64,000 nucleotides of DNA from Halisarca cf. caerulea (lineage: Eukaryota; Porifera; Demospongiae; Chondrillida; Halisarcidae). The stretch is taken from positions 3,155,475 through 3,219,474 of the forward strand of contig CAUJGJ010000161.1 of NCBI GenBank assembly GCA_963170055.1, given 5' to 3'. Positions 1,630-30,455 of this stretch are shown here, in pieces. Both the position numbers and the translations under genes were made by a program. The stretch's first letter is position 1. Every line of letters starts with the position of its first letter. The notes beneath the pieces are model-generated. The model saw only the letters and a program-made list of their open reading frames with translations, had not been told where the DNA came from and did not search any database.

Positions 1630-1818
1630 CTTTCAGTGCTTTAGCTTCTTCCATTGAAGGGTCATGCTTATCCAGGATGGATGCTACCTTCTTTATAACA
1701 TCACTTTCTTTCACTGCAGTTGTTTCCACCAGTCTTGTTTTCCACTGGTAGTAGTGTTCAAAAACTGAAGTACACTCTTCCACTGATAAACAGTCTGATC
1801 CTCTGAGGTCACTCATAA
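1630..1818 (-). CDS. Putative 189-nt phase-1 symmetric exon (array module, copy at 1.6 kb)
   Basis: On the minus strand a pyrimidine-rich acceptor (TTGTTTTCTAG) precedes the exon and a GTATATTGAAG donor follows it. Two bases complete a valine codon at the 5' edge and one base of a glycine codon remains at the 3' edge, so the exon is phase 1-1 and 189 nt long. The module reads VMSDLRGSDCLSVEEC, then EHYYQW, KESDVIKKVASILDKH and ends ALKG. It looks helical and soluble, with no signal peptide or membrane segment. It is almost identical to the copy at 4294-4482 and close to 14964-15152. The family is unknown to me. The intact frame amid transposon-rich introns favours a real exon, but transcription is unproven. 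Confidence 0.68.
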
Positions 1819-1997
1819 CTAGAAAACAAGACACACAGCAGGTGATGACATTACTGCGTTATCCACTTTTTACATTATGGGATACATCAAGTAACGGATT
1901 CACAAAATATACACACAACTGGCCACTTGAGAATGTATGCCCACATATAATTATGCTGACACAAATAGACCGACACAGGTGATTGTAAACATACGTA

Positions 1998-2456
1998 CAG
2001 TAGAAAAACCCCACAAATACGACCACCATTGGGAACGGTGCAAGTGGTTATATTTTGAGCAAGTCATATTTCTCAAATTACCGTTCAGAATAGCATGGCA
2101 CATCCGTACGTCGTTCCGTAGACACAGGATGCACATAAGGCAATAAAACTGTTGAAAAAAGTACCAACACACCTCTTTTTTGTTACTCCATTGGGATGAT
2201 AGAAATTTGACCATAAGATTACCATCTCTTTCTACTGATAGGGTCATTTCAGAACCTAATGTCCACAGAATACAGCAGTATCCATAAATGAGTGGTCTAC
2301 ATTGTGAAGATTTGACACCAAGAGGAAAAAAAAATGTGGTCTTTATTCTGAAACTAATTTACGTAAAAGTATAGGAGAAATAGTGGACTACAACAAAGTG
2401 GTCTTAATTTTGAAGTGGTCTTATTTCCGGGATGGTCTTCTTATGGGGTTCTACTG
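1998..2456. mobile_element. TIR (MITE-like) element, CAGTAGAA family, copy 1
   Basis: The ends are inverted: the left end CAGTAGAAAAACCCCA matches the reverse complement of the right end (CAGTAGAACCCCATAAG), flanked by TA on both sides as expected for Tc1/mariner/pogo-type insertion. The element is 459 bp with no transposase, so it is non-autonomous. Equivalent copies lie at 4670-5126 and 15336-15777, carried by the tandem duplication. Confidence 0.72.
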
Positions 2457-2993
2457 TATGTACATGCACATGCGCTGAGGAAAGTATGCTCATATGTTTC
2501 CCTCTCCTGCCCCTCCCGCTTGCACTCAAATGTGGGTCATAGGTGGCTGGACTTTGTAGTACTCCATATGTAGGATTGGCTACCAACAATATGGCTGCTA
2601 CAGATTTGGGTAAATTTACTTTTGCGTGATAATTAGCAGTACATGCAGTTCCATTAGAAGTATTTCCGAGCAAAAGTGGTACACTTTGATACACTAACTA
2701 CAACACAAGGTTGATAAAAACCTTCGAAGTTCATCTCTACAAACAATGTCAAATTGCAGATGGCTCCTATGATGATGATTCTTCTTCTTGTCATGTTTTC
2801 AAACTAAGTTACAGGTCTCTAGGGAGGGTCCAGCATAGATCTCACCTTATGCCAGTGAGCTCAAATTGTTGGCGTGAAATGCCTGGTACCAGCCTACTGG
2901 CTATAATTTTGATGGGCAAATTGCATGTATTTGCTAGATCAGCCTTTGTTTGGATTACCACAGAGCTTACAGGAGAGTAGGCGTAACTACTAT

Positions 2994-3057
<64 letters not shown>

Positions 3058-3065
3058 CACACACA
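2994..3065. repeat. (AC)n microsatellite
   Basis: AC tract with one missing base (AACAC) near its end, equivalent to 301-396 of unit 1. Confidence 0.97.
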
Positions 3066-3378
3066 AACACACACACAGACACACATTACTACACTTTGCA
3101 AACACTACATACTGTATGGACAGAAACTTTCATGGCGCTAAATTTTCGCGGTTATCGAGGATCAGTGGGCATCCATGAATAGTATAATCTGCAAAAAATT
3201 AGCATTGTCTTCTTTATCGTGGAGTCAAAGTGGCCAGCGGTACACAGATTGCACAATATCCTTCAGAGCACCTTTGCTCCATGGACTTCTTCGTCCAGAA
3301 CGCACAGCAACAGGATTCTAAGATTCATTTGTGTCGTTTTTGTCATTCCATACAATTTACGTTCGTTATACTACTGAT

Positions 3379-3624
3379 ATGTCAACCCTAAACTACTTCA
3401 ACAAGAAATCTACACGAGATTCGTCTGTGGATGGTCAGTCTTCCGGTTTCCCTTCCCTGCAGGACGTTTTACCTGGTTCTACCACACAGGCGGTGTGTGA
3501 TGAAACCTCAAAAGACAGAAGCAATAAAGTAACAGTAGTTATGTTGCTAATGTTGGCGGATATAGCATTGAATTTACGAATTAATATTGTGTTGTTTTTG
3601 TATTTTTTGGATTGCTTTTATTGA
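3379..3624 (+). pseudogene. hAT-like transposase N-terminal open frame (copy 2)
   Basis: This copy has the same protein as 707-952 because it lies in the second tandem unit. The AATAAA signal again overlaps the stop region (3624-3629). Confidence 0.3.
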
Positions 3625-4293
3625 ATAAATTATGCATAGGATGCATGAGGTGTTCACTAAAATTCCTCAAAATTTCAACGACGAAAATCCTCAAAATTGT
3701 GTAACCCTGAAGTTTCATACCACAAACGCTTTGGTCCATATAGTACTCACATATGCACGCGAACATATGCATGAATAGAATTTTGAATGTGTACTCGGTG
3801 CAAATTTTAAAGGCCTTCTGGAGGGTGACGCTAACAATACAAATTCATACATACACCCATCCACCATCCCACTCATTAATAAACACACACACACACACAC
3901 ACACATACACACACACAGTACTGACTGACAAACATCCAGTGGGACAATAGCAGGGGATAAAACCTGCACACTCTGAATGCATGTGCACATACAGCGATAT
4001 ACTGCCACGTGGTAATTCACCCACGGATAGAGTATTGGTTCTGGTGAGTACTAAAAGGTAGGAAAGTCCACAATGTTTTTGCCTCACACTGCCAAAGATG
4101 ACCTTCATTTTAACGATACAACATGACAGACAAATTTGCTATGACAGCACTGTATTGATACACATCCATGCAAAAGCATATAGTATGTACCTACACATAT
4201 ATTAAGTACATACAGTATATAACTAGTGATGTGTAAAAATCTGCACACACAAATCAAAACTACAAAAATCAAGAACATCAATCTTCAATATAC

Positions 4294-4482
4294 CTTTCAG
4301 TGCTTTAGCTTCTTCACTTGAAGAGTCATGCTTATCCAGGATGGATGCTACCTTCTTTATAACATCACTTTCTTTCACTGCAGTTGTTTCCACCAGTCTT
4401 GTTTTCCACTGGTAGTAGTGTTCAAAAACTGAAGTACACTCTTCCACTGATAAACAGTCTGATCCTCTGAGGTCACTCATAG
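4294..4482 (-). CDS. Putative 189-nt phase-1 symmetric exon (array module, copy at 4.3 kb)
   Basis: This is the second exon of the tandem 2.7-kb repeat. Acceptor and donor sequences match the 1.6-kb copy. The first residue is alanine (G|CT) instead of valine, and the linker before the last helix reads DSSSEEAKALKG instead of DPSMEEAKALKG; otherwise the 64 residues are the same. The frame is open for all 189 nt. The near identity shows a recent duplication, so intactness alone is weak evidence of selection for this copy. Confidence 0.65.
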
Positions 4483-4669
4483 CTAGAAAACAAGACACAC
4501 AGCAGGTGATGACATTACTACGTATGTGCGTTATCCACTTTTTACATTATGGGATACATCAAGTAATGGATTCACAAAATATACGCACAACTGGCCACTT
4601 GAGAATGTATGCCCACATATAATTATGCTGACACAAATAGACCGACACAGGTGATTGTAAACATACGTA

Positions 4670-5126
4670 CAGTAGAAGAACCTCACAAATACAACCACCA
4701 TTGGGAGCGGTGCAAGTGGTCATATTTTGAGCAAGTCATATTTCTCAAAGTACCGTTCAGAATAGCATGGCACATCCGTACGTCGTTCCGTAGACACAGG
4801 ATGCACATAAGGCAATAAAACTGTTGAAAAAAGTACCAACACACCTCTTTTTTATTTACTCCATTGGGATGATAGAAATTTGACCATAAGATTACCATCT
4901 CTTTCTACTGATAGGGTCATTTCAGAACCTAATGTCCACAGAATACAGCAGTATCCATAAATGAGTGTCTACATTGTGAAGATTTGACACCAAGAGGAAA
5001 AAAATGTGGTCTTCATTCTGAAACTAATTTACATAAAAGTATAGGAGAAATCGTGGACTACAACAAAGTGGTCTTAATTTTGAAGTGGTCTTATTTCTGG
5101 GATGGACTTCTTATGGGGTTCTACTG
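4670..5126. mobile_element. TIR (MITE-like) element, CAGTAGAA family, copy 2
   Basis: Same element as 1998-2456 in the second unit. Its right end is repeated at about 5294-5316 by the 190-bp tandem duplication. Confidence 0.7.
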
Positions 5127-5553
5127 TATGTACATGCACATGCGCTGATGAAAGTATGCTCATATGTTTCCCTCTTCTGCCCCTCCCGCTTGCACTCAAA
5201 TGTGGGTCATAGCTGGCTGGACTTTGTAGTACTCCATATGTAGGATTGGCTACCAAAAATATGGCTGCTACATATTTGGGTAAATTTACTTTTGGACTTC
5301 TTATGGGGTTCTACTGTATGTACATGCACATGCGCTGATGAAAGTATGCTCATATGTTTCCCTCTCCTGCCCCTCCCGCTTGTACTCAAATGTGGGTCAT
5401 AGGTGGCTGGACTTTGTAGTACTCCATATGTAGGATTGGCTACCAAACATACGGCTGCTACATATTTGGGTAAATTTACTTTTGCCTGATAACTAGCAGT
5501 ACATGCAGTTCCATTAGAAGTATTTCCAAGCAAAAGTGGTACACTTTGATACA

Positions 5554-5876
5554 CTAACTACAACACAAGGTTGATAAAAACCTTCGAAGTTCATCTCTAC
5601 AAACAATGTCAATTGAATTGCAGATGGCTCCTATGATGATGATTCTTCTTCTTCAGTTTTCAAACTAAGTTATAGGTCTCTAGGGAGGGTCCAGCATAGA
5701 TCTCATCTTATGCAAGTGAGCTCAAATTGTTGGCGTGAAACGCCTGGTACCAGCCTACTGGTTATAATTTTGATGGGAAAATTGCATGTATTTGCTAGAT
5801 CAGCCATTTTTGGATCACCACAGAGCTTACAGGAGGGTAGGCGTAACTACTATGCCAACACACACACACACACACA
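5554..5876. repeat. Truncated third copy of the 2.69-kb unit
   Basis: Only the first ~320 bp of the unit is present, up to the first (AC)n tract, which is short here. The sequence then switches within the AC tract to the longer duplicated segment starting at 5876, so the breakpoint lies in the dinucleotide repeat. Confidence 0.85.
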
Positions 5877-6196
5877 AGTTTCATCCCGCAAAACTTGGAC
5901 ATGTACGTACGGTACTGAAACAGTTTCCAGAAATTGTAAATACATGAACGAAGAAGATGCCATTTAAATATGACACACATGATGTAAAGACTGGCATTGA
6001 AGCCGTTGTAGTATTGGTTCTTAAAATATTGTCATTTTTTCTTAATTTTTCATAATTATATTTTTCAATTTGTATGCAATTTGCTTATATACATGTAGTG
6101 TATGCTTAATACTATCATTTTCGTTTCTTGCAAACTCTTCAAACTTGTATATATATCCTGCAATCCATTTTTTAACATGCACATGAGTACAACGTT

Positions 6197-6955
6197 CACA
6201 GGTATGTTATGGTAGAATTGAGGCTAGAAGGGGGCATTTTGTGGTTTGACAAGGTATGCGATTAGATTATTACACCTCAGACCGTTTATCACGGTCTGGT
6301 CATGTGACCGCAGCTTAAACACGACATTTATACGTCATCATAGGCTGAAACGCGCGAGTATTTGAAGAGTTTGCCTTTGTGGACATGTGATGTCATGTGA
6401 CAAAGGCCCAAAGAAGCACTCCAGTCCATAAGGATTTTATGGCAAAAAAGGCGCGGGTCTAGATCTCTACGTAGAGGCTTAAACTTTGTCAAATCATCGC
6501 TGAAGGACTGAACTTCAAATTCTGATTTGGGGAAGATTGTTGGTCCATCCCTTCAGTTTAGGCGCAGCCATTTGTTACTATAGCCGTTCTTTTCAATCAG
6601 AAATCCCTTGACATAACAGCCAAGGAATGGAGCAACGTTTTCCCCAAATCAGAAAAGTAAGATTTGAACATGTTCTGTCTTCTGAATTCACTGGTGTGTT
6701 TAAATTCAGATGTCTAGACCTGCGCCTTTTGCGTTTTTTGCTTTTTTTGGTATGGTCAAAAATCGACCATGTACAACACGTACCATTTGTTTTTGCCTTT
6801 TCAAATTACATATGCACAAACTAGGAATGTTTGAAATACTATCTAGATGCTTTCTTGAGTCTTTCCACCTTCAGGAAGAGAAAACAAGACATTTTTACAA
6901 GCCATTCGAAAATGGCAGTCATGTTTTTTTGGCGAAAAGTGTCATAACATACCTG
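6197..6955. mobile_element. 759-bp foldback-like element with CAGGTATGTTATG ends
   Basis: The left end CACAGGTATGTTATG and right end CATAACATACCTG are inverted. The flanks carry a 4-bp duplication CGTT (6193-6196 and 6956-6959), and the paralogue near 17405-17420 shows the unoccupied site with a single CGTT. Inner segments are also inverted (GATTTGGGGAAGATTGTT against TTTTCCCCAAATC; GGTCTAGA against TCTAGACC), so the element can fold back. Two short frames inside it are not recognised. Confidence 0.85.
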
Positions 6956-8161
6956 CGTTTCGAAATAGTTAAATATTATATATAATTTGTCTACATGTAG
7001 TCTAATAATTACATATACGTATGTTCCACAATGTTATTTCAATGTTCACTTCCAATATATTATTTCCAGTTTTCTATATACATTGGCTGTACGTTGTTTT
7101 GACATCGAGTCAATTTAATAATCTAGAAAAATATAATTGTTAAATTTGGCTACCCCTAGGGTAGTGTTCTCCAAAGGGGGGTATATCATCCTAGGATACT
7201 TTACTCTGGGGTGATAATTTATAAAACATCCTATCTTATTAAAGGGACACTGCCACATTTTTTTTCCTGTTAAACGTTAGTATACACGCTAAAAGTAACA
7301 TGCGCGGTGTTCATACTTTACAATTATGTGTGCAAATAGGAGTTAATTGTCGTTATCTTTTGACTAAATCTACCATTTTTCGATTAAATGTGTGGGTCAA
7401 CAAATTTCAGCTGAAAAGTGGAAGTGACGTCACAAGGGGAAGGGAAGCAAAAATCGTGTAAACAAATAATGGGAAATATGAGCGTTTCTTCTACCGATTT
7501 GTTTTATTTTACAAATGTTGTTGGTTTAGCTTAGTCGATTAAAGCATGGTAGAAAGCATTTATGAGGAACAAATAGGCACGGAGGATCAAACAAAGCCTC
7601 TACCGACACTGCAGCAGGCTTGGCAAACACTAGAGCACTGACAAAGACCGAAGAAGATTACCATCATGGCATCATGCGTTTATTTGGAAGCTTAAGAATG
7701 CTGTACGATAAACATTTTCTTCCAGAATTCGAATATAGTGTTATGTAGCTTTAGGGAAATCTTCGCCAGTAGTGTTCGCGTACATCACAGTTGCTATGCA
7801 TGCCCTCTGCTATAGGGAGGGTCTCTGATGTAAACAACAAGTTTCCGTAAAACAAAAAGTCTAAGAATTCAAAGCAGAGATGGATTTGATATTATCAATA
7901 ATGAGCCATGAAAGTACCAATCCGGTCTTTTTGGACACGTCCTAGGGTGTACATGCAGGAATAGAATCTGCATGATACCAATGCTTCTGCTCCTGAAGGT
8001 GGACTATCTCACAAGAGTGTACCTAAGACATAGCCTGCACATTGCATCTTCTTCATAAACAGCACTCAGTAGGATACAAAGTTTTTTTCCATCTCCAGTT
8101 CATTAAATGATGAGCTGTGGATTGGCCCAGTTTGTGTCCAGGGTTGCCGTAAACGTTAATA

Positions 8162-8757
8162 CCGTATATTCCCTAATTTTTCGTCAGAGCAAATTTTAGG
8201 AAATTTTGGTCATTTAGAGAGTTGTTGGTCACTGACCAACAACCTGACGAATAATTAGAGAATACCGACGAATAATTAGAGCACCTGACGAATATTTAGA
8301 GTTAGGGTAAAATGGCGGCATTCAGTCTGACGGTTGTGGCGCCTGTGCGAGGTTATCACGTATTTATAGAGCGATGGGAGGCAGCTATTGGCGACTGCCT
8401 AACCTTCAAACAGCAATTTGGTAAGTGAACGATATCGACTAGTTTACTATTGTCTTCCGCATGTTCAGTGACTTTGATATCGCGAAAACCATGAAGGGCT
8501 GTCAGGGAGACGAGGCGAGTGCAAATGATCTTTATCCATCGATAAATCCGGGGGTCCGAGGTACGGTACTAACAAAACAAGACTCTTTCGAACACGTGTC
8601 AGTCTCTATTGTGTCGTCACTATTGTGCTGACGAAACAATAGAGTCAAAGACGAATAATTAGGGAACGTCACATTTCGTCATGAATTAGGGAGCAATAAG
8701 GTCCAATTTGGGGACTTGACGAAAAATTAGGGTGACGAAAAATTAGGGAATATACGG
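8162..8757. mobile_element. 596-bp TIR element, CCGTATATTCCCTAA family
   Basis: Inverted ends CCGTATATTCCCTAATTTTT and its complement AAAAATTAGGGAATATACGG are flanked by TA. The paralogous position at 19194 has an empty site with a single TA. Inside, many short repeats of the type GACGAATAATTAG extend the termini inward. No transposase is present. Confidence 0.88.
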
Positions 8758-9674
8758 TATTTCATCAGTAAACAGCTATATCTTTGATAACAGTAACAAG
8801 TATCGTGAACAGGGGATGGGCCCTGCTATTGGAGTTCTCATGTTTTGTGTAGCTATCATGTCCCTGTAAAGCTGTAACTAAACTATTTGCAGTGAAATAT
8901 GCCCAGGGTTCACCTGTGACATTGCAAATGGTTCAGGGTCACTACATATTGTACAGCAGTAGAACTGTATATCTACTTATATACAAGGCCCACTTAGACA
9001 GGTGGGCCAGGTGGGCCGTGGCCCACCCAACATTTTTGGAAGCCTTAAGAACAAAACTTACCTTCATCGAAATTTTAGCTATAGGCGAGGTTGTAATAAT
9101 CACACAAATGCATAGCAAACACCTAATAAGTTTGAGCAAACTAAGCTTAAAGTTGCTCCTGTATCCTTGAAATTACAGAATCCTAAGCAACTTTTACAGA
9201 CTACTCTCCAGCCATGAGTGCGATTGCCAAAATTCCGCCATTTCTAATAAGTATTGATTAATACATACTGTAAAGATGGCTGTGTAATCCATACCAGTAC
9301 CAATTTCAATGATCCACCTGTTTGTAACCCATACCAGTACCAATTTCAGTGATCTATTCAAATCCGAAGGACTTGATTATATTGAATCCATTACTAATGT
9401 ATTGTATATGGTATATACTAGTTAGTAATGGATGCACTATCCTTCAGATTTGCTTACTCATGCAAGGAATGAAACATTAAGTGGTACTGCTAGCTGGTAT
9501 GGACTACAAACAGGAACACCGTGGAACCTCCGATAGTGGACTCTCCCAAATAAGGACACAGTACAATAAACCTCTCTACAAAGGGCACAGCTTGAAGTCC
9601 CAAAATATATTCTCCCTATGGCTCTTATACATTTTGCTACTCCCAAAGAGGACACCCTCCTTGCAAAGAACAAA

Positions 9675-10554
9675 TGAGGGATTGCTCCTTCTGTTCTTCT
9701 TGGTCACATTGCTCACAGAAACATGTAGGACCCATTTTTGCAGTTTATACTATTCAGCAAAACCCTGTTCCCCAGATACACACTGCAAAGTGCGAGAAGA
9801 ACAGATGTTTTGTGTAACTTACTTTGTAGGACTATAGGATTAATCAATATCAGAGGCATTTCCTCAATGTGAGTATGGAATTGCATTTGCCATGTGAACA
9901 CTTGTATTAAAAGGACACCAATCATATTCAAATGAGAGTGCAAATTCGAATGATTTGCAGGAAAAACTTCATATGTGGCAAAAAATCCCCCAATAGCAAG
10001 GTGAAGTCTCTACATAGATTCCCTTCAGTAATTTGCAGCAGCTGACATTCACTTTCAGATGGCGGTTCGAAGATGAAGAAGGTTCAAACTGGCAATGCTA
10101 AATTCATTGGCCCGTTGTGGAACCTTTGTTCTACCGCTAGCCACAAAACTTGTAATTTCATCGATTTTACCATTGTGAAAAACAACAATGTCACCCAGCT
10201 AGTGACAAAAGATACTGACAGTGTACATTAAAATATGAATTTCATCACTTAGACTTTCACTAGCCATGAATAATAAGAGTGATAAACTTTTTTTTAGATA
10301 GAATATACTACCTTCTTGCCCTAGGTAAACATGAAGGGAAGTGGGGGGCAGATTTATTCAGGTGAGGTTATATCAGCAACTACATTAATTGGACCAAATC
10401 TTGGTCCAAGGTCGCAGATTAGTGAACAAAGGGTAAAATAATAATACATATCCAATAACTACACAATACGAGGACATTTAATAACAAATGTATAAACATG
10501 TGTACACAGTAAAAACTTACACAAGACAAGCACAAAAATGTACACTATACACAC
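9675..10554. other. No gene recognised
   Basis: After the end of duplication A the sequence is unique within the window. Short open frames (9481-9837, 9713-9943) have no recognisable motif. Confidence 0.5.
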
Positions 10555-10743
10555 CTTTCAGTGTTCTAGGTACTCCACTAGAAGGGAAATGCTTGTCCAC
10601 GATAAATGCTACCTTTTCTACAATATCCCTTTCTCTTACTGCAGCTGTTTCCACCAGTCTCCTTTCCCACAAATTGTAGTTTGCAAAAACTGAAGTACAT
10701 TCTTCCACTGATAAACAATCTGATCCTCTGAGGTCAGACATAA
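10555..10743 (-). CDS. Putative 189-nt phase-1 symmetric exon (divergent copy at 10.6 kb)
   Basis: The exon lies between a CTAG acceptor and a GGTGTGTATAG donor, again 189 nt and phase 1-1. The module keeps VMSDLRGSDCLSVEECTSVF and then diverges: ANYNLWERRLVETAAVRERD, IVEKVAFIVDKHFPSSG, ending TLKG. It differs from its neighbours at many positions yet has no stop or indel, which argues for purifying selection rather than a fresh copy. It sits only about 400 bp from the copy at 11151-11339, the closest pair in the array. Confidence 0.7.
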
Positions 10744-11150: not shown

Positions 11151-11339
11151 CTTTCAGTACTCTAGTTTCATTATGAAAAGGGTAATGCTTGTCCATGATA
11201 GAGGCTATCTTCACTTGAATATGACTTTCTTTCATTACAGCTTTCCCCACCAGTCTACCTGCCCACTCATAGTAGTATTGGAAAACTGCAGCACATTCTT
11301 CATCCGACAAACATTCTGATCCCTTGAGGTCGGCCATAA
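11151..11339 (-). CDS. Putative 189-nt phase-1 symmetric exon (divergent copy at 11.2 kb)
   Basis: The acceptor is TTTTCTAG and the donor GTACAGTTTAG. The 189-nt phase 1-1 frame is intact. This is one of the most divergent array members: VMADLKGSECLSDEECAAVF, QYYYEWAGRLVGKAVMKESH, IQVKIASIMDKHYPFHNET, ending VLKG. The invariant positions (leucine and glycine before the CLS motif, EEC, VF, W, RL, KE, KIAS, DKH, LKG) are kept, which defines the module core. Function unknown. Confidence 0.7.
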
Positions 11340-13350: not shown

Positions 13351-14022
13351 AATGCATGGCTGACGTTACATGGTAGGGGCGGATTTAGGGGTGTTTCTAT
13401 GGTTTCCAGTCCTGACCAGTCAAGCTACTCTAATTTAGCCTTGGTATTCTTCACTGAGAGCTGTTAGAGCAATATTCAATTCCCATGAAATCAGCTATGT
13501 AGATGTAAAAAGTTACCATTTATTGCTTTATTGTCAGCCCTAGAACTCTTTAGCAAAGCTATGTGGAGAATATATTCTCAAAAAAGCTCTGACAACCTCT
13601 ATTCAAGGAAATTGCTTGAACATTGCCATCTTTTAGTACATCATCTGACATTTACAAGTGACATCAGAATAATTAGTAATGGTAAAGCAGCTTATTTATT
13701 CATGAACTGTACCCAAGAGTAATGATTATAAGTTAGGTATATTCTCACTGCATAAATGTGGCAAAGAGCTGGAATCACACAATCAGAATCCAACCTTGTG
13801 AGTGGCAGTCATTTTAACCATTAGTTGCATTTTACTACAATTTGGGATTTTATAATTTAAAGGAAACTAGTCACACTATTTTCTGCATCCGCCCGTGCAC
13901 AGATTGTGCTATATCCTTCAGAGCACTTTTGCTCCTTATACTATTTCATACTATCTTCTCCGTTTAGATTCATTTGTGTCGTTTTTGCCATTCCAGACAA
14001 TTTCCATTCATTTTACACTGAT

Positions 14023-14262
14023 ATGTCAACCCTAGACTATTTCAATAAGAAATCTACACGAGATTCATCTGTGGACAGTCAGTGTTCCGATTTCCCTTTC
14101 CTGCAGGGCGTTTTACCTGGTTCTACCACACAGGCGGTGTGCGATGAAACCTCAAAAGACAGAAGCATTAACAGTAGTTATGTTGCTAATGTTAGCAGAT
14201 TTTGTATTGCATTTATTAATTTTGCATTGTTTTTTGTATTTTCTTTAGATTGCTTGTATTGA
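14023..14262 (+). pseudogene. hAT-like transposase N-terminal open frame (copy 3, diverged)
   Basis: This diverged copy still starts with ATG and reads MSTLDYFNKKSTRDSSVDSQ, then FLQGVLPGSTTQAVCDET and SKDRSIN. The start and frame are kept despite several substitutions and a small deletion before the hydrophobic tail. Same caveats as the other copies. Confidence 0.3.
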
Positions 14263-14532
14263 ATAAATTATACACAGTATGCATGAGCTGTTCACGAAAC
14301 TTCCTCAAAATTGGCACATCGACAGTTTCCACCACAAAATCCTCAAACTTATGCAACTCCGGAAGTTTAGTACCACGAAAGTTTTGGCCCATACAGTACA
14401 CACATATGCGTGCGAACATATGCATGAATAGAATTTTTTATGTGTACTCAGTGCAAATTTTGAATGCCTTCTTGAGGGGACGCTAACAATACATATTCAC
14501 ACATCTACACATCCACCATCCCACTCATTTAT

Positions 14533-14534
<2 letters not shown>

Positions 14535-14611
<77 letters not shown>
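14535..14611. repeat. (AC)n microsatellite
   Basis: An AC tract of about 77 bp, much longer than the equivalent tracts at 1210-1252 and 3883-3916 in the other unit copies. Confidence 0.97.
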
Positions 14612-14612
<1 letters not shown>

Positions 14613-14963
14613 GCACTGTACTGACAAACATCCAGCAGGGGATAAAACCTGCACACTCTAAATGTGTGTACATACAGTGAGACACTGCCATGTGGTATTT
14701 CGCCCGCGGATAGAGTATTGGTTCTGGTGAGTACTAAAAGGTAGGAAAGTCCACAATGTTTTTGCCTCACACTGCCAAAGATGACCTTCATTTCAACGAT
14801 ACAATACGACAGACAAAATTGCTGTGACAGCACTGTGTTAATACACATCCATACAAAAACATATAATATGTACCTACACATATATTAAGTACATAGTGAT
14901 GTGTAAAAATCTGCAAACACAAATCAAAACTACAAAAATCAAGAACATCAATCTTCAATATAC

Positions 14964-15152
14964 CTTTCAGTGCTTTAGCTTCTTCCCTTGAAGGGTCATG
15001 CTTATCCATGATGGATGCTACCTTCTTTATAACATCACTTTCTTTCACTGCAGTTGTTTCCACCAGTCTCCTTTCCCACTGGTAGTCGCTTTTAAAAACT
15101 GAAGTACATTCTTCCACTGATAAACAGTCTGATCCTCTGAGGTCAGCCATAA
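14964..15152 (-). CDS. Putative 189-nt phase-1 symmetric exon (copy at 15 kb)
   Basis: This exon belongs to the third full copy of the 2.7-kb repeat unit (13894-16014). Splice borders are conserved. The module reads VMADLRGSDCLSVEECTSVF, KSDYQWERRLVETTAVKESD, VIKKVASIMDKHDPSREEA, ending ALKG. It differs from the 1.6- and 4.3-kb copies mostly in the short KSDYQ segment, where the others have EHYYQ. The frame is intact. Confidence 0.68.
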
Positions 15153-15335
15153 CTAGAAAACAAGACACACAGCAGGTGATGATACTACTATGTGCGTTAT
15201 CCACTTTTTACATTATGGGATACATCAAGTAATGGATTCACAAAATATACACACAACTGGCCACTTGAGAATGTATGGCCACTTATAATTATGCTGACAC
15301 AAATAGACCGACACAGGTGATTGTAAACATATGTA

Positions 15336-15777
15336 CAGTTGAAGAACCTCACAAATACGACCACCATTGGGAGCGGTGCAAGTGGTCATATTTTGAGCGA
15401 GTCATATTTCTCAAAGTCCCGTTCAGAATAGCATGGCACATCCGTAAGTCGTTCCGTAGACACAGGATGCACATAAGGCAATAAAACTGTAGAAAAAAGC
15501 ACCACCACACCTCATTTATTGTTACTCCATTGGGATGATAGAAATTTGACCATAAGTTTACCATCTCTTTCTACTGATAGGGTCATTTCAGAACCTAATG
15601 TCCACAGAATACAGCAGTATCCATAAATATGTGGTCTACATTGTGAAGATTTGACACCAAGAGGAAAAAAAATGTGGTCTTCATTCTGAAACTAATTTAC
15701 GTAAAAGCATAGGAGAAATAGTGGACTACAACAAAGTGGTCTTATTTCTGGGATGGTCTTCTTATGGGGTTCTAATG
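15336..15777. mobile_element. TIR (MITE-like) element, CAGTAGAA family, copy 3
   Basis: Diverged copy. The right end reads CTAATGTA where others read CTACTGTA, so the terminal repeat is damaged. Confidence 0.62.
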
Positions 15778-16014
15778 TATGTACATGCACATGCGCCGAT
15801 GAAAGTATGCTCATATGTTTCCCTCTCCTGCCCCTCCCGCTTGCACTCAAATTTGGGTCATAGCTGGCTGGACTTTGTAGTACTCCATGTGTAGGATTGG
15901 CTACCAAAAATATGGCTGCTACATATTTAGGTAAATTTACTTTTGCCTGATAACTAGCTGTACATGCAGTTCCATTAGAAGTATTTCCAAGCAAAAGTGG
16001 TACACTTTGATACA

Positions 16015-16600
16015 CTAACTACAACACAAGGTTGATAAAAACCTTCGAGGTTCATCTCTACAAACAATGTCAAATTGCAGATGGCTCCTATGATGATGAT
16101 TCTTCTTCTTGTCATGTTTTCAAACTAAGTTACAGGTCTCTAGGGAGGGTCCAGCATAGGTCTCATCTTATGTCAGTGAGCTCAAATTGTTGGCGTGAAA
16201 TGCCTGGTACCAGCCCTACTGGCTATAATTTTGATGGGCAAATTACATGTATTTGCTAGATCAGCCATTTATGGATCACCACAGAGCTTACAGGAGAGTA
16301 GGCGTAACTACTATGCACACACACACACACATTACTATACTTTGCAAACACTACATACTGTATAGACAGAAACTTTTCATGGCGCTAAATTTTCGCGGTT
16401 ATCGAGGATTAGTGGGCATCCACGAAAAGTATAATCTGCAAAAATTCCATTGTCTTCTTTATCGTGGAGTCAAAGTGGCCAGCGGTACACAGATTGCACA
16501 ATATCCTTCAGAGCACCTTTGCTCTGTGGACTTTTTTCTTCGTTGTGAACGCACAGCAGCAAACCTCAAAAGACAGAAGTCACAAACCCTAAATCGTTTA
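16015..16600. repeat. 5' part of another 2.69-kb unit copy
   Basis: The segment starts with CTAACTACAACACAAGG like copies 1-3 and runs past a short (AC)n tract to the segment equivalent to 610 of copy 1. It then joins unrelated sequence (16601-17090) containing no recognised gene. Confidence 0.88.
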
Positions 16601-21153: not shown

Positions 21154-21389
21154 TGTAGTGTTCATTAATATGTGTAGTATTCAGTAATGCATGCTTAAGT
21201 AATGCATGTTAACATTAGTAGTTATGTGTCATTTAAGTAAGGTGTTAGTATCATTGTGTGCATGTGTTTGCATTATGATTTGTGACATCATTGTAGTAGT
21301 TAGCCACGTGTTGGAGTGCATGAGTTTGGTTTGGATTGTACTGGATTGTCATTAATGATTTGAATCATCTTTGACCGGTGTCGATATCA
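21154..21389 (+). repeat. 5' LTR of a deleted LTR retroelement
   Basis: A 236-bp sequence beginning TGTAGTG and ending TATCA is repeated in direct orientation at 21774-22009 with few differences. It is followed by TGGCGACGAGG (21394 on), the usual place and form of a tRNA primer-binding site. Confidence 0.88.
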
Positions 21390-21415
21390 TAACTGGCGAC
21401 GAGGAAATCGGAGAA

Positions 21416-21773: not shown

Positions 21774-22009
21774 TGCAGTGTTCATTAATATGAGTAGTGT
21801 TCAGTAATGCATGCTTAAGTAATGCATGTTAACATTAGTAGTTATGTGTCATTTAAGTAAGGTGTTAGTATCATTGTGTGCATGTGTTTGCATTATGATT
21901 TGTGACGTCATTGTAGTAGTTACCCACGTGTTGGAGTGCATGAGTTTGGTTTGGATTGTACTGGATTGTCATTAATGATTTGAATCATCTTTGATCAGTG
22001 TTGATATCA
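21774..22009 (+). repeat. 3' LTR of the deleted LTR retroelement
   Basis: Direct repeat of 21154-21389, also 236 bp, differing at a handful of sites (for example GACGTCATTG for GACATCATTG). The insertion interrupts the poly-G tract of an exon-array intron unit, whose uninterrupted form is seen at 29095-29130. Confidence 0.88.
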
Positions 22010-22672
22010 TAGGGGGGGACTGGGTATGATAGCACAGTGATGATACCCTTCCATGCAAAAGTATGTACAGTAATTACAGTGGTGAAAATTAACACTCTCC
22101 CACCAACACGAGGTGAGTAAATTCTACCAGAGGTGAGCAAACTTATAAAGATGGGTGCCCGAGTGGACACTAAGAAAACCCTTCCAACATGGTTGATCAA
22201 AGTTATTGAGACATAGCTTTGAAGTGAACAATAGTACAGGACCTGGTACTTAAGTTGCAACGAAGGAAGCATAGGGTTAGTATCTTTCAAAAGTAAGCCT
22301 GTAATCAATTTCATCAATTCAGCTTTAGAATGCGTCCTGATAAATTTTATTTTTGCATAAGAGATTTTTGGTGACAAATTAATGGCTGAGGCTCACAGGG
22401 CAACATTCAATCTCATGGTTACTTTTAGAAAGAAGACAACTGTTGCTTCTATTAGGAGGGGTATAAAGAGGGTATCCCCCTCCCCTACTAACCCAGTTGC
22501 CCATCTACCCCCCTCACTTGAATTCCTGCAATACACATGCATAGTTGCAGCAGACTGACTAAGTATGTACTGTATTCAGAAACTACATGAGTGGCACAAG
22601 GAGCCTCAGATACGATCTTGCAAGGTCCAAAAACTAAAACAATTCCCAGACTCCTATCGTATAGGCGCCTAT

Positions 22673-22852
22673 GATTCCACATCCACTCCACCCTCTGATT
22701 CCACATCTGCCCCACCCTATGATTCCACATCTGCCCCACCCTCTGATTCCACATCTGCCCCACCCTCTGATTCCACATCTGCCCCACCCTCTGATTCCAC
22801 ATCTAGCTCACCCTCTGATTCCACATCGACCCACTCTCTAATTCCACATCTA
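22673..22852. repeat. 24-bp minisatellite, locus 1
   Basis: About seven units of GATTCCACATCTGCCCCA plus CCCTCT (24 bp). In one plus frame it encodes DSTSAPPS repeats and on the minus strand MWNQRVGQ repeats; because the unit is a multiple of three these frames are open by construction. Confidence 0.93.
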
Positions 22853-23342
22853 CCCCATCATTTACATCACTATGCCTTGTTATTGCCCATTCTTGATAAA
22901 TGTCTTCAACTAGATCCTAACAGCTAGAGTTGATAAGAATAAATTAAAAATTATATTTACAACATTGATTTGTAGGCAAACCACAAAAATCAAAGTACAA
23001 TAAGGGAAGGGGAGGTAAAATATATACGTACAGTGAGTGTTTTGTGAGTATCATGGTAATATGATATTAATTTTTTAAAGACATAAAGAAACATGGCCTA
23101 GGCAAATATTCCATGCAAATGAGCCTGAGATTGAAATCTAGACTGGATATTACTGAAATCTTGTATTTTTCTGAATTAAACCTGAATAGTGATGGTTATC
23201 TTATATCTCCTTTGCAGACATTCCCATATACATAAATACCTAGGCATTCGTACATTAAATACATACAGTATATACACAAGTAGTGATGTATAAAAATCTG
23301 CGTACACAATGTAAAATACATCAATCTTCAATAACATTGTAC

Positions 23343-23531
23343 CTTTCAGTTTTCTAGCTTCTTCACTTGAAGGGACATACTTGCCTATGACAGATGCTAT
23401 CTTCTCTACAATACAACTTTCTTTCGTGGCAGCATTCTCCACCAGTCTCCTTTCCCATCCAGGGTAGTCTTGGAAAACCGCAGCATATTCTTCCACTGAT
23501 AAACATTCTGATCCTTTGAGGTCAGACATAA
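23343..23531 (-). CDS. Putative 189-nt phase-1 symmetric exon (copy at 23.4 kb)
   Basis: The acceptor is TTTTCTAG and the donor GTACAATGTTATTG. The intact phase 1-1 module reads VMSDLKGSECLSVEEYAAVF, QDYPGWERRLVENAATKESC, IVEKIASVIGKYVPSSEEA, ending KLKG. The cysteine of the usual EEC motif is tyrosine, and DKH has become GKY. An ORF continues into the intron past the donor, but the conserved donor position is preferred because it matches nine other copies. Confidence 0.68.
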
Positions 23532-23689
23532 CTAGAAAACAAGACACACAGCAGGTGGTGATACTCCATGTGTATTATCCACTTGGGCAATATGTATTAG
23601 TTAAACCATGGCTTCCTGTGGTGCCCGTCATTTATCACACAAGTGAACACAACACCACAAAGTGCCATGGTTGAGGGAAGTTCACGCAG

Positions 23690-23905
23690 AAGATGAGCCG
23701 AAGGTTATGACAGGGAGGAAGTACTGGCCATGCAGTGATAATCCGGAAGGTATCACTCAAGGTGCAAAAAGAGGACACCTGTAGGTGGTTATAATGTTGG
23801 AAGTGCCAGCGTCAGTGCCTGTCTCGAGGTGTGGCATAGCAAGGCGGGCAGTAAACTTTAGATGAGTGCACGTGTATGACTGAGGGTGGGAGCCTACGAC
23901 ATAGC
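23690..23905. repeat. Dispersed copy of the 12.7-kb segment
   Basis: The stretch from GAAGTACTGGCCATGCAG through GACACCTGTAGGTGGT, AAGTGCCAGCGTCAGTGC and GACTGAGGGTGGGAGCC parallels 12690-12880 in the same orientation. It abuts the second 24-bp minisatellite. Confidence 0.8.
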
Positions 23906-23907
23906 AT

Positions 23908-24030
23908 ATGATTCCACATCTACCCCACCCTCTGATTCCACATCTACCCCACCCTCTGATTCCACATCTACCCCACCCTCTGATTCCACATCTACCCCAC
24001 CCTCTAATTCTACATCTACCCCATCCTTTA
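23908..24030. repeat. 24-bp minisatellite, locus 2
   Basis: About five units, GATTCCACATCTACCCCA plus CCCTCT, differing from locus 1 mainly by ACCC for GCCC. The unit variant is homogenised within each locus. Confidence 0.93.
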
Positions 24031-24807
24031 CATCACTATGCCTTGTTATTGCCCATCTTGATAAATATCTTCAAATAGATTCTAAAAAACTGAGTTCATA
24101 AGAATAAATTATAAATAATATTTAAAACATGGATTTGTAGGCAAAGCACAAAAATCAAAGTACAATGAGGGAAGGGGAGGTAAAATGTATGTAGAGTGGG
24201 TTTTATGTGAGTATCATGGTAATATGATAGTAAGTTTTAAAGACATAAAGAAACATGGCCTATGCAAACATTCCATGCAAATGAGCCTGAGATTGAAATC
24301 TAGACTGGCTATTACTGAAATCTTATATTTTTCTGAAATTAACCTGAATATAGTGATGGTTATCTTAGATCTCATTTGCAGATACTCACATCTACATAAA
24401 TACCTACACAAACGTATACAGTGGTCCCCACTTAATCGCATAACAGATAAAGGAATGTTCTGGTTAATGGAATGTAATCTCCAAGTACAGAATCATTTGT
24501 TACTAAGTTTCTACCACTTCGTTTTTGCATTTTAATACTCTTATATGGTCAGAAAAAAATCGTGATATGAAGTTTTGTAGCCCTCCACAGCAATCTAAAA
24601 GACTTAGATACAAAGTAGATATGCTTTAGAAATAATAGAAAGTATTTTCTGAGCATCACAATCTGTGCACTTGCCAAACAGACTGATTAATTTCACTACT
24701 TTGATAACGGCTGCCATTTTTGTTTATGTCAAAAATCGGACATAACATACCTGTGCACAATGCAAAAATACACATTGTCAAGTTGAGCACATCAATCTTC
24801 AATATAC

Positions 24808-24996
24808 CTTTCAGTTTTTTAGTTTCTTCACTTGAAGGGACATGCTTGTCCATGACAGAGGCTATTTTATATACAATATAACTTTCTTTCATTGCAGCCT
24901 TTCTCACCAACCTCTGTTCCCATCCATCGTAGTATAGGAAAACTGCAGCACATTCTTCCACAGACAAACAGTCTGACCCTCTGAGGTCAGCTATAA
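24808..24996 (-). CDS. Putative 189-nt phase-1 symmetric exon (copy at 24.9 kb)
   Basis: The exon has the CTAG acceptor and GTATATTGAAG donor. The module reads VIADLRGSDCLSVEECAAVF, LYYDGWEQRLVRKAAMKESY, IVYKIASVMDKHVPSSEET, ending KLKG. The second residue is isoleucine (ATA) where the other copies have methionine, so the in-module ATG is not an essential start codon, supporting its reading as an internal exon. It is very close to the three copies at 28-30 kb. Confidence 0.7.
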
Positions 24997-24999
24997 CTA

Positions 25000-26030
25000 G
25001 AAAGCAAGACACACAGCAGGTGACGATACTCCCATGTGTGTTATCCACTTGTGCAATATGTATTAGTTAAACTATGGCTCTCTGCATGCGGTGTCCGTCA
25101 TTTATCACACAAGTAAACACAACACCACAGAGTACCATAGTTTAACTGACTAAGTTAATGTATTCCAGCAGATTAGCACTTGATGTGCATATACCATTAA
25201 CCAGTTGGTAAATTCAGATCTTAGAGATGGACTTAGCTACAGTAGATAGAGCTTTTTACAGAGAAACCAGGAAACTCATGATTGTACGTGTTGTCCCTAG
25301 GCCTGGGCCATTTATGGAAAATCCAGAGGCATCCTTTGAGACCAGGTCCACTGTGACTTCTTTCCTAAAGAAACAATCGACATGGAGTTGGGAAAGGAAA
25401 AGTTTGGAAAAATAAAGTTTGGTTAAAAAGATGCAGCAACAAAATAATAGAAAGATCAATGAATGAAATCAATTCAAACAGTTTTTGGGGGCTCAGGGCT
25501 TCATTTACGGGGGAGTCACCTTTTGGTAAAATCCTGCCTCCTTGGAATTGATGTAGTTATTGTATTGAACAAGTAATTCGAGCTAAAAACTCACATGCTT
25601 GAAACTCTTGCAAAGCATTGAAGTGGAACTGCACAGCTATACATTCATTGAACATAATGTTTATCCGACTATACACCATATTTACTATGTCACGTGAACG
25701 CCTCATGGCGGAATTTGCATTCATTAAAACAGGTGTAGAAAGCCTCCCCACATGTGAAGGAAGCGAGGAAGTTTAAAAGAAAGCAAGAATAAAGGCAGAA
25801 AGCTCGAAATACATGACGATAGTGTCCTCTCCAGCAAAGCAGTGGCATGCACAATAAAGCAGCTATAACTAAGCAACTGAAATATAACTAAGCAACTGAA
25901 GCTAAAAGAATGTTTAGTGTGAGTGCCAAAATAGCTTCAAAGATCTCAGTATTTTTCCGTCCATTCTTGTCCTTTGTGCAATTGTCGCATATCATTTAGT
26001 AAAGCGTCGTTCAGGCTATGTTCAATGTAA
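25000..26030. other. Array intron sequence with diverged 0.99-kb unit homology
   Basis: 25030-25440 parallels the intronic part of the 0.99-kb units (for example GAGATGGACTTAGCTACAGT matches 30680-30700) but is diverged. 25500-26030 shows nothing recognisable. Confidence 0.6.
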
Positions 26031-26069
26031 GTTAGGTTAGGTTAGGTTAGGTTAGGTTAGGTTAGGTTA
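26031..26069 (-). repeat. (GGTTA)n tail of a LINE
   Basis: Eight tandem pentamers sit just where the minus-strand LINE ends, so they form its 3' tail rather than a telomere. Confidence 0.85.
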
Positions 26070-27425
26070 ACTTATTTTACCTAGGAAGGCCTTTAGCCAA
26101 AGGCTACCATCCTAGGCACCGAGTAGGAGAGTACAGAAACGAAGATAAAAGTAAAAAATATGATAACGAAATCAGTAAGACATGCAATAAAAGAGTCAAG
26201 AGTTCAATTGAAAATGTTACTTTAACATGAGGTAGCATACCGTCATGCAGGAAAATTCACAGAATATTGAAAATTATTAAGGGATAGTAATGGAAATGAA
26301 ATAATTTAACAACAGATCTTGCATGGTCGTTTGAATAGATGTGCATCATTTTCTTGAAGGCAGGCAGGGAACTCGCTGCATGTGCGTAAATATACGGTGG
26401 TGGAAGAGATCTCCAAAGTGAGGTGCTGGCAAAAGTGAAGGCTCGCTGTACAAGGGCAGTCTTCATTGGAGGAAGGTTGGGAAGATGGCTAGTAAGGGTA
26501 GAGTAGAAATGGATGGGAAGCTTAAAGAGAGAGGATAGATAAGATGGTACAAGAGAATTGAAGCATCTAGTGTAAGACAGAAAGGCAAGATGGAGGTTTC
26601 TAAGAGCAGCTAGTGAAGTCAGACCAAGATCATTCCACAATATGGAGGCTGAGAACCGATGAGGTTTGTGAAGAGCTAGTTTACAAGCATAGTTGAAGAT
26701 AGTTTGAAGCTTTGCTGAGTCACCCTAACTACAGCTAATCCACACAACATCACAATAATCAAGTAAGGACAGGATGTAGGACTTGAGGGAAAGAAGAAGA
26801 GATGGTCAATGTGATTTAAAGTGTCATTTATATAGACCCCAAGGAATTTAAAAGTGCTGACCTGTTCAATGGTGACTTCGTCAAGATGGATGAATAAAGG
26901 AGGAGGGGTAGCTTTGGCTCTTGAGGATTGAATTAACATACATTTTGTCTTACTAGCATTGAGTTTCAGGCCATTTGACATCATCCAAGAGTTTGCTTGA
27001 TCCAGAGAAGTTTGGAGAGAGTCAGTTAAAAGTTGCAGGTCTTTGCCAGAGACTAAGACCTAGGCTTAACTCTAACTCTAACCTATAGTATCGTCAGCAA
27101 ATAGGACAGTAGAGCCAGGAGGAAGATGATTAGGAAGATCATGCACTAATGAAGGCAGAGAAGAGAGTGGGATCAAGTATAGAGCTTTGGGGAACCCTGG
27201 AAGTAGGAAAACCAAGATGGGAAAGTTTGGAGAGAAGAAGGGAAAGATTGACAGTGTCATAAGCCTTAGAAACGTCAAGAAATAGTACAGCAACATATTC
27301 TTTAATGCCCAAAGCTCTGTGCCACTTGTCAGTACAAGAGAGGAGAAGGGATTGCGAGGAGTGACCAGAGCGGAAGCCACATTGGTGATAGTGGAGAAGA
27401 GAGTATTTTGCACATGGGTCCCACA
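26070..27425 (-). pseudogene. LINE reverse transcriptase, 3' part, decayed
   Basis: Minus-strand fragments occur in the expected order across frames: HQCGFRSGHSSQSLLLSCTD and AVLFLDVSKAYDTVN (RT fingers/palm), STVLFADDT (the FADD catalytic motif), NGLKLNASKTKCM and FKFLGVYINDTLNH (palm/thumb), then LPPMKTALVQRAFTFAS near the C terminus. Frame changes and stops break it (frames at 27139-27426, 27078-27413, 26676-26984, 26257-26640). The style is jockey/CR1-like non-LTR. It ends in the pentamer tail at 26031 and starts abruptly at 27425 next to array-intron sequence. Confidence 0.88.
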
Positions 27426-27558
27426 TCTGTAAACAAATAGGGTCTACTTAGTGTAAGGGGGGGGGGTAGGGGAATTTGGTTTGACAGCACTGTGTTGATA
27501 CACATTTATGCAAAAATATATAATACATACCTACACATAGTATATTAAGTACATACAG

Positions 27559-28191
27559 CAGGGGCGTAGGCAGAAATGTTCAAAGGGATTTTCCAATCAA
27601 AATAACACAACACCATATGATGATAGTATGCAATATTGTGCATGTGTCATTGCAAGTACCCCATGCATGCTCCAAATGTCAGGGGAGGGGGGGGGGGGGG
27701 GGTGGGGGGTGGAGAGGGACAATAGCAAACGGAATGGAAGGGACAGATATGTAGGCACATGGAACCCTAGATGTATATAAAACACATTCAGTGCAGTGAT
27801 GTATTCAGTATCATAGGAGGTTATAGCTAGGGGGATCTGAGGGGTTGCTCCCCCAGGGGTAATTGGAATTTTTTGGTCATATGAGGTGGTAATTCAGGCC
27901 ATTTTAGATCATTAGTCAAGGCCCAACAGTTGCAAGTAGGGGCTTCTCTACAGAAATTTACAATACCGCTGGAAATCTTTGGGATGGAAGCTGGAGAGTT
28001 TAATTTGGGGTGGAAGCTGGAGAGTTTAATTTGGGGTGGAAGTTTCCTCTCCCTCACTGGATAGATCGAACTGTGGAACTATAATATCCAACCAGGCCAG
28101 TAGTTGTAGTAGTAGTAGTAGTAGTGTAGGGTAGTTTTCTTCAAGGGGGTTTTCCTGAAAACAGTGGAAAAACTCACTCCCTACGCCCCTG
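27559..28191. mobile_element. 633-bp TIR element, CAGGGGCG family, with 5-bp TSD
   Basis: The left end CAGGGGCGTAGG and right end CCTACGCCCCTG are inverted. Both flanks carry TACAG (27554-27558 and 28192-28196). A poly-G run (27684-27710) and a (GTA)n run lie inside. It inserted into the intron of the first 0.99-kb unit. Confidence 0.85.
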
Positions 28192-28295
28192 TACAGAACA
28201 CAATTAAAGATGGATAAAAGTCTGTGCACATACGTACAATGCAAAAATACACATTGTCAAGATATTATAAGCACATGCACTAATCTTCCCTATAC

Positions 28296-28484
28296 CTTTC
28301 AGTTTTTTAGTTTCTTCACTTGAAGGGACATGCTTGTTCATGACAGAGGCTATCTTCTCTACAATATAACTTTCTTTCATTGCGGCCTTTCTCGCCAATC
28401 TCTGTTCCCATCCATCGTAGTATAGGAAAACTTGGGTATATTCTTCCACTGATAAACAGTCTGATCCTCTGAGGTCAGCCATAA
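28296..28484 (-). CDS. Putative 189-nt phase-1 symmetric exon (first of the 0.99-kb tandem units)
   Basis: The frame and splice borders are intact. Compared with the two following units it has EEYTQVF instead of EECAAVF and MNKH instead of MDKH. Its downstream intron is disrupted by the transposon at 27559-28191. It is the oldest-looking of the three tandem 0.99-kb units. Confidence 0.68.
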
Positions 28485-29277
28485 CTAGAAAACAAGACAC
28501 ACAGCAGGCGATGATAGCCCCATGTGTATTATCCACTTGTGCAATATGTATTAGTTAAACCATGGTTCTCCCGTCAATTAGTACACATGTGAATACAACA
28601 CCACAACGTGCCATGTTTTAACTGACCAAGCTAATGTATTATGGCAGATTAGCACTTGATGTGTGCATACCAAATAACCAGTTGGCAAATTCAGATCCTA
28701 GAGATGGACAAACATAGTTTTCTACAGAGAATTCAACCAGGAAACTATGTACTGATCATACACATCGTCCCTAGGCCTGGTTGCACCATTTACAGACATT
28801 GTATAGGCATCCTCCGAGACCAGAGTGACTTCTTGCCTGAAAAAACGATACAAAAGAAGTTGGGAAAGGTGAGACATCAAAGCCAAAAGAAGAGGGGACG
28901 TTTCGTGATCACTCAATTTCTCTACGTTGTACCAAGCATTGCTCCAGTGCACAAATTTCTTGAGCATTTGGGTAACGTTAACCTGTATATGCAAGAAACT
29001 TTGCACATTTGAAGGTGAGAGATGGTTGTAGTCAGCACATTTTTGGAGCGATTGAGCTGGACCAGTTTTGGCATACGGGACTGTCAAAAAATAGGGTCTA
29101 CTTCGGGGGGTGGGGGGTATGACAGCACAGTGTAGCTACACATCCATGCAAATTATATAATACATACCTACACATATATATTAAGTACATACAGTACACA
29201 ACTACAGATGGATAAAATGTACACACTTATGGCAAAAATACACATTATCAAGTTGAGCACATCAATCTTCAATATAC

Positions 29278-29466
29278 CTTTCAGTTTTTTAGTTTCTTCA
29301 CTTGAAGGGACATGCTTGTCCATGACAGAGGCTATCTTCTCTACAATATAACTTTCTTTCATTGCGGCCTTTCTCGCCAATCTCTGTTCCCATCCATCGT
29401 AGTATAGGAAAACTGCAGCACATTCTTTCACAGACAAACAGTCTGACCCTCTGAGGTCAGCCATAA
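29278..29466 (-). CDS. Putative 189-nt phase-1 symmetric exon (second 0.99-kb unit)
   Basis: This copy is nearly identical to 30267-30455: the only residue change is SVKEC for SVEEC (one charge reversal). The unit spans 29121-30109 with a period of 989 bp. Borders are CTAG acceptor and GTATATTGAAG donor. Confidence 0.68.
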
Positions 29467-30266
29467 CTAGAAAGCAAGACACACAGCAGGTGACGATACT
29501 CCCATGTGTGTTATCCACTTGTGCAATACGTATTGGTTAAACCATGGCTCTCTGCATGTGGTGTCATTTATCACACAAGTGAACACAACACCACAAAGTA
29601 TCATGGTTTAACTGACTAAGCTAATGTATTCCAGCAGATTAGCACTTGATGTGTGCATACCAAATAACCAGTTGGCAAATTCAGATCCTAGAGATGGACA
29701 AACATAGTTTTCTACAGAGAATTCAACCAGGAAACTATGTACTGATCATACACATCGTCCCTAGGCCTGGTTGCACCATTTACAGACATTGTATAGGCAT
29801 CCTCCGAGACCAGAGTGACTTCTTGCCTGAAAAAACGATACAAAAGAAGTTGGGAAAGGTGAGACATCAAAGCCAAAAGAAGAGGGGACGTTTCGTGATC
29901 ACTCAATTTCTCTACGTTGTACCAAGCATTGCTCCAGTGCACAAATTTCTTGAGCATTTGGGCAACGTTAAACTGTATATGCAAGAAACTTTGCACATTT
30001 GAAGGTGAGAGATGGTTGTAGTCAGCACATTTTTGGAGCGATTGAGCAGGACCAGTTTTGGCATACAGGACTGTCAAAAAATAGGGTCTACTTCAGGGGG
30101 TGGGGGTATGACAGCACAGTGTAGCTACACATCCATGCAAATTATATAATACATACCTACACATATATATTAAGTACATACAGTACACAACTACAGATGG
30201 ATAAAATGTACACACTTATGGCAAAAATACACATTGTCAAGTTTAGCACATCAATCTTCAATATAC

Positions 30267-30455
30267 CTTTCAGTTTTTTAGTTTCTTCACTTGAAGGGAC
30301 ATGCTTGTCCATGACAGAGGCTATCTTCTCTACAATATAACTTTCTTTCATTGCGGCCTTTCTCGCCAATCTCTGTTCCCATCCATCGTAGTATAGGAAA
30401 ACTGCAGCACATTCTTCCACAGACAAACAGTCTGACCCTCTGAGGTCAGCCATAA
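30267..30455 (-). CDS. Putative 189-nt phase-1 symmetric exon (third 0.99-kb unit)
   Basis: This is a good reference copy of the module: VMADLRGSDCLSVEECAAVF, LYYDGWEQRLARKAAMKESY, IVEKIASVMDKHVPSSEET, ending KLKG. The last helix is rich in lysine and glutamate. The unit is cut at 30803, where LINE sequence begins. A phase 1-1 exon of 63 codons can be duplicated, skipped or swapped without shifting the frame. Confidence 0.7.

Follow-up and report, generated by a model that had tools for sequence, protein, structure and literature searches.

A tandem array of symmetric exons in the sponge Halisarca cf. caerulea as the probable repeat-domain part of a gene in a paralogous cluster

We analysed a stretch of 64,000 nucleotides (nt) from the sponge Halisarca cf. 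caerulea (assembly GCA_963170055.1, contig CAUJGJ010000161.1, positions 3,155,475 to 3,219,474 of the forward strand), hereafter the window, whose minus strand carries ten exons that each encode one copy of a short module. With a probability of about 0.72, these ten exons form the repeat-domain part of a gene, named gene B, which is one of a tandem cluster of five or more paralogues on the minus strand of this contig (C150). Several proteins from JGI contigs contain the modules in series, which makes a tandem repeat domain the most likely reading, over a cassette from which one exon is picked. The original prediction, made from the letters of the window, had proposed either a large gene whose repeat domain varies in copy number or a Dscam-like choice of one exon: the former agrees with the joined modules of the JGI proteins and with the 15, 11 and 7 unbroken copies in arrays A, B and C of the cluster, while the latter is disfavoured by the several modules found in a row in these proteins and by the observation that no docking-like complement stood out in the one intron tested.

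The ten segments, lying between window positions 1630 and 30455, are each 189 nt long, preceded by AG and followed by GT, of phase 1-1 and free of stops, and each encodes 63 residues. Delimited by tblastn and by the reading of borders and frame, they are found on the minus strand, in transcription order, at 30267..30455 (the first of the array), 29278..29466, 28296..28484, 24808..24996, 23343..23531, 14964..15152, 11151..11339, 10555..10743, 4294..4482 and 1630..1818. When joined in order behind an upstream exon, X3, they yield a single 702-codon frame without a stop, so that the ten exons, their common borders and phase and their open frame all stand as originally predicted. The same holds for the divergent copies at 10.6, 11.2 and 23.4 kb, which keep length, phase and frame. 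The module proteins have 19 invariant columns, and the nine others are 51–67% identical to the first. In tblastn searches of the window with two modules as queries, the other copies are matched at E values of 2.9e-17 or below and the next matches start at 1.3; this gap indicates that the set is not a product of chance.

Of the 47 records returned by a profile search of 5.8 billion proteins, ten come from short JGI contigs; a query of four joined modules added eight further JGI proteins, giving a total of 18 JGI proteins with modules. In several of the first ten, one module runs into the next between LK and V, which is the junction predicted by phase-1 splicing; mapped to genomic exons, 14 of the 18 proteins hold, by our reading, 21 exact module-module joins. 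Thus P0048 (295 residues) is composed of the end of one and one whole module of a related type, termed type 2, followed by three whole modules of the window's type (type 1) and part of a fourth. P0051 joins relatives of the copies at 3232309 (97% identity) and 3231302 (94%), which are neighbours in array C in that genomic order. The last 15 residues of the window exon at 24808..24996, common to the exons at 29278 and 30267, recur with 100% identity as the first 15 residues of P0053 (the best of its listed ties), where they are joined to the next module. None of the 95 matches to a junction query in the window's own genome spans the query from end to end, the longest covering 50 of 57 residues and running into the intron; an intronless copy in this genome therefore does not explain the joined records. 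We infer that the JGI proteins derive from spliced RNA.

When a contiguous stretch of 264 kb and two additional pieces were compared with themselves, a recurrent exon order emerged around the arrays on the minus strand of C150: N0, X5, X6, X4, X7, two fibronectin III exons, a Death exon, X3, the modules and X2. X6 occurs at five places and X3 at four, all on one strand, which implies at least five tandem gene copies. The Death exon and the two fibronectin III exons sit between X7 and X3 in two paralogues. In the one at 3.24–3.26 Mb, they are recognized by Pfam, with 27.1 bits for Death (cut-off 22.6) and 40 bits for fibronectin III (cut-off 25), and the one at 3.07–3.14 Mb carries relatives of both. 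In our reading, X2, X3, X6 and the fibronectin III exons have borders in agreement with phase 1, and the acceptor of the Death exon agrees with it as well.

In the window, the upstream part of gene B, also on the minus strand, comprises N0 (66 nt, 61675..61740), near the 5' end of the gene, X5 (108 nt, 61492..61599), X6 (180 nt, phase 1-1, 61241..61420) and X4 (54830..54996, 3' end uncertain). The JGI protein P0060 is 97% identical to the window over X6 and 89% over X4, and crosses the N0/X5, X5/X6 and X6/X4 boundaries exactly at the window's splice sites, so that both junctions of X5 and of X6 and the acceptor of X4 are as in this protein; an exon for the nine P0060 residues preceding N0 was looked for and not found. 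X3 (216 nt, phase 1-1) follows at 32925..33140; its relatives, which occur at three further places on C150, are in each case followed downstream by modules. The N0-X5-X6-X4 block and X3 with its array would belong to a single gene B transcript, the one ground for linking X4 to X3 and the array being the same exon order in the paralogues.

The module is not confined to the window. A search of the window's own genome (194 Mb in 454 contigs), in which the best candidates were scored and the counts are lower bounds, gave at least 74 matches: 57 on C150, 6 on C247 and, more distant, 11 on C3. A stop is present in four of the 74 listed, and 54 of the 57 listed on C150 lie on the minus strand. On C150, the copies form array A (3.040–3.062 Mb, 15 unbroken copies), array B (3.154–3.186 Mb, 11 unbroken copies, ten of them inside the window and the eleventh adjoining it on the outside at C150:3154405), array C (3.225–3.237 Mb, 7 unbroken copies), array D (3.266–3.290 Mb, which includes three broken or split copies, excluded from the copy counts and selection tests) and array E (3.351–3.367 Mb, of which part was fetched). 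The fetched DNA holds 50 unbroken copies: 45 of them measure 189 nt, as does the copy at 3237314 once its profile-trimmed end is read on, and the remaining four measure 186, 192, 195 and 195 nt, lengths that are each divisible by three. AG and GT flank all 50, again with 3237314 read on.

Several observations weigh against a single spliced gene with its repeats in series. The JGI contigs are about 1 kb long and their origin from RNA or DNA is not stated; P0001, P0016, P0046, P0052 and P0053 hold duplicated or shifted pieces resembling misassembly; the joins of D-type to A-type modules in P0001 and P0043 depart from the order in this genome; and a single module type occurs twice in P0051. The module-like exon at the end of P0050 and P0057 has a best genome match of only 41% identity (P0050 query), so that some records, at least, derive from a different individual, species or gene. 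Concerning gene B itself, no clear donor follows X4 in the window and P0060 stops within that exon, so that a short product ending there is possible. Under the length filter applied, no protein was found that connects X3 with X4, with Death or with a module. The window's own gene likewise yielded no X7, fibronectin III or Death exon, the last being looked for between X4 and X3. Finally, the copies used in the selection tests were preselected as unbroken, the three broken or split copies of array D having been left out.

Some of these facts could also reflect a system in which the modules are spliced in series while their number or choice varies between transcripts or individuals, giving a repertoire. 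The repeated module type in P0051 and the out-of-order joins of P0001 and P0043 would be expected from it, as would the different sizes of the paralogous arrays and the insert between two modules of P0050 (11 residues, positions 34–44), which looks as if encoded by a small extra exon or produced by an alternative acceptor. However, the collapse of repeats in short contigs, or an origin from another individual or species, accounts for the same facts, and most module stretches of the JGI proteins differ in sequence from this genome. We consider such variation unlikely, although its probability is appreciable.

The selection analysis was made on 45 unbroken copies of 189 nt, encoding 42 distinct proteins, with the three broken or split copies of array D left out. 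The ratio of mean replacement to mean silent divergence (dN/dS) is 0.73, 0.78, 0.58 and 0.36 in classes of rising dS, which comprise 984 of the 990 pairs; the six others have a dS below 0.001 and fall outside the classes. Counted on the tree, replacement changes number 327 and silent ones 137, a dN/dS of 0.80, with 1.13 for ten high-entropy sites (picked afterwards) and 0.66 for the rest. The 12 closest pairs show 100 replacement versus 27 silent changes, which, against a neutral expectation of about 3 to 1 in this rough count, we do not read as different from neutral. For a dN/dS near 1, named in the original prediction as speaking against it, the outcome is mixed: 0.80 over the tree, 0.36–0.78 in the dS classes and about neutral in the closest pairs. 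Our reading is that the frame is kept under overall constraint that appears weak, with a few sites that seem to change fast, mainly positions 22, 24, 25, 28, 36, 60 and 61.

The same data bear on the idea of a former repeat domain that is now largely unconstrained and amplified by unequal exchange. The ratios of 0.73–0.78 in the closer distance classes, the near-neutral counts of the closest pairs and the broken copies in array D would be in line with such decay. Yet frame and splice sites are intact in all ten window copies, about 18 stop-creating changes are expected on terminal branches under neutrality and none is seen in the 45 copies (picked as unbroken, with three broken ones omitted), and seven residues, L5, C10, V19, F20, L30, L62 and K63, are identical in 45 of 45; decay of the array is accordingly held to be improbable.

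The introns show how the array may have grown and bear on the Dscam-like alternative, in which one exon would be chosen per transcript. Self-comparison of the window identifies duplicated units of exon plus intron of about 2.6, 2.5 and 1.6 kb at 89–97% identity, with units of about 2.1–2.6 kb including exon and introns, 87–97% identical, at window positions 1–5294 and 13895–16331. The original prediction had taken everything between the exons for transposon debris: part of it is, instead, intron duplicated along with the exons, while frames of a reverse transcriptase (RVT_1) do occur in the same gene cluster, but outside the window. An intron stretch of about 60 nt before each module exon is well conserved among the copies (window 30456–30515, for example), and about 30 nt of this box before the acceptor are recognizable, with several differences, in a distant copy on C3. 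In an ungapped count, conservation stopped sharply 58 nt upstream of the exons, an edge that was rejected as partly an artefact of omitting gaps: gapped similarity extends further upstream in subsets of the copies, and the box can therefore be plain shared descent. This conserved sequence immediately before each exon, together with the tandem homologous symmetric exons of one length and phase, is what would recommend a Dscam-like cassette. Against it stand the three whole modules and part of another in series in a JGI protein, within the limits of the JGI contigs, and the intron between X3 and the first module, where the best complement of the box reaches 17 of 27 bases (mean 15.9 and maximum 18 in 30 shuffles) and 17 of 31 (mean 16.6, maximum 19). 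A choice of one exon per transcript is, on this evidence, quite improbable. Least credible of all is that the exons belong to the coding part of a transposable element: despite the many copies and the transposon genes nearby, the copies listed are clustered in order on three contigs, with those of C150 almost all on the same strand, the modules are co-linear with other conserved exons, and the Pfam search matched them to no transposon family or transposon-encoded protein.

The module remains unassigned to a known family, as originally predicted: ten type-1 members have no significant match in Pfam-A and no CARD hit, and comparison with PDB sequences is equally without a significant match. Its fold is predicted to be helical, searches with the structure models giving low-scoring helical repeats only. 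With the model of P0048, Foldseek lists at rank 48 the entry 6jcc, named D_1CY5_M1, with a probability of 0.80; 1CY5 is the CARD of Apaf-1. The type-2 module of P0048 has a sub-threshold match to CARD (PF00619, E 0.02). Membership of the type-1 module in the CARD family is not supported at the profile level, where no match appears and hhalign gives a probability of 0.3% against 14 CARDs of this genome. The type-2 module is probably kin to type 1, judging from profile similarity (E 1.1e-4, probability 57%), and X3 and X4 appear weakly related to the module, a kinship that the profile comparison does not show for X6 or X2. The type-2 module (VLSELYGSKLITKEEV...) has eight matches at 764–832 kb of C150, far from the window, and is joined to type-1 modules in the JGI proteins P0048 and P0049. 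The literature search brought up no paper that we recognized as describing the module or the gene family.

Several annotations and neighbouring features were recorded besides. Source labels on some JGI proteins (cytochrome c551/c552, DUF1800 and similar) do not fit the sequences; the label PF26359 on P0048 and P0049 is unconfirmed here. The many weak Pfam matches of P0048–P0052 to unrelated families look like repeat-driven noise, and U3_assoc_6 on P0049, above its cut-off (26 versus 24.7 bits), was treated as noise too. An open frame of 3483 residues was discarded as an artefact of a run of N. The four open reading frames of the window that were tested have no Pfam match, scans of the window for tRNA and Rfam families were empty, and a (TG)n tract of 1.1 kb lies at 43711–44824. 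Another exon type, X1, is present in three copies beside the modules of array A (C150:3056318-3066035), the copy tested being without a Pfam match. The RVT_1 frames lie among the exons of the array A gene at C150:3067381-3069993 (plus strand) and 3075706-3078840 (minus strand; loci L012 and L013). The Death exon of the cluster has relatives, with identities of up to 70%, on C386, C402, C3, C129 and many other contigs, so that the family of Death genes reaches beyond that of the module.

Genes that encode repeat proteins in tandem symmetric exons form a known general class. The array shares with them one repeat per exon, the same phase at both ends and the duplication of exon plus intron; it differs in having an unassigned repeat and in the setting of the arrays, a cluster in which some paralogues also carry Death and fibronectin III exons. 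Dscam1 of insects and crustaceans likewise has homologous exons in tandem and in one phase; unlike in Dscam1, the modules are joined in series in the JGI proteins, and no docking-type element was found in the one intron tested. The module resembles CARD in being short and helical by prediction, but is shorter and has neither a Pfam CARD hit nor a profile match to 14 CARDs of this genome. Sponge immune genes with Death and CARD domains, such as the NLRs of Dysidea avara (PMC12909245), offer a likeness in that this genome, too, has many Death and CARD domains and clustered genes; the architecture here is one of helical exons, fibronectin III, Death and a repeat array, NACHT and LRR not having been searched for.

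If the ten exons are the repeat-domain part of gene B, exon-plus-intron units would duplicate and enlarge the arrays, and unequal exchange could add or remove modules without breaking the frame because every module exon is symmetric (phase 1-1). Splicing, presumably with every module exon included in the transcript, would string the modules head to tail into a helical repeat region. The protein may serve cell-death or immune signalling as a scaffold for signalling or recognition, a role suggested by two sister genes, in which fibronectin III and Death exons occur in matching order, and by the few positions that change fast while the frame is kept; fast change at few sites would fit a partner-binding face. 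A clustered, Death-linked gene family in which arrays of interchangeable, fast-changing exons give each individual, by way of copy number and unequal exchange, and perhaps each transcript, by exon choice, a different string of recognition modules made of an undescribed helical repeat is a rather doubtful extension of this reading.

Tandem symmetric exons are an already known manner, in general, of encoding a repeat domain; the repeat itself was not found in the libraries searched. A repeat without a significant match among the Pfam-A models or PDB sequences searched occurs at about 70 places in this genome, two of its genes carry Death exons, and its frame is kept while its residues change. 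Were a diversity system to be true, it would consist of exon arrays within clustered signalling genes that are comparable between individuals; were the repeat structural only, it would still represent an unannotated protein family growing visibly by exon-plus-intron duplication.

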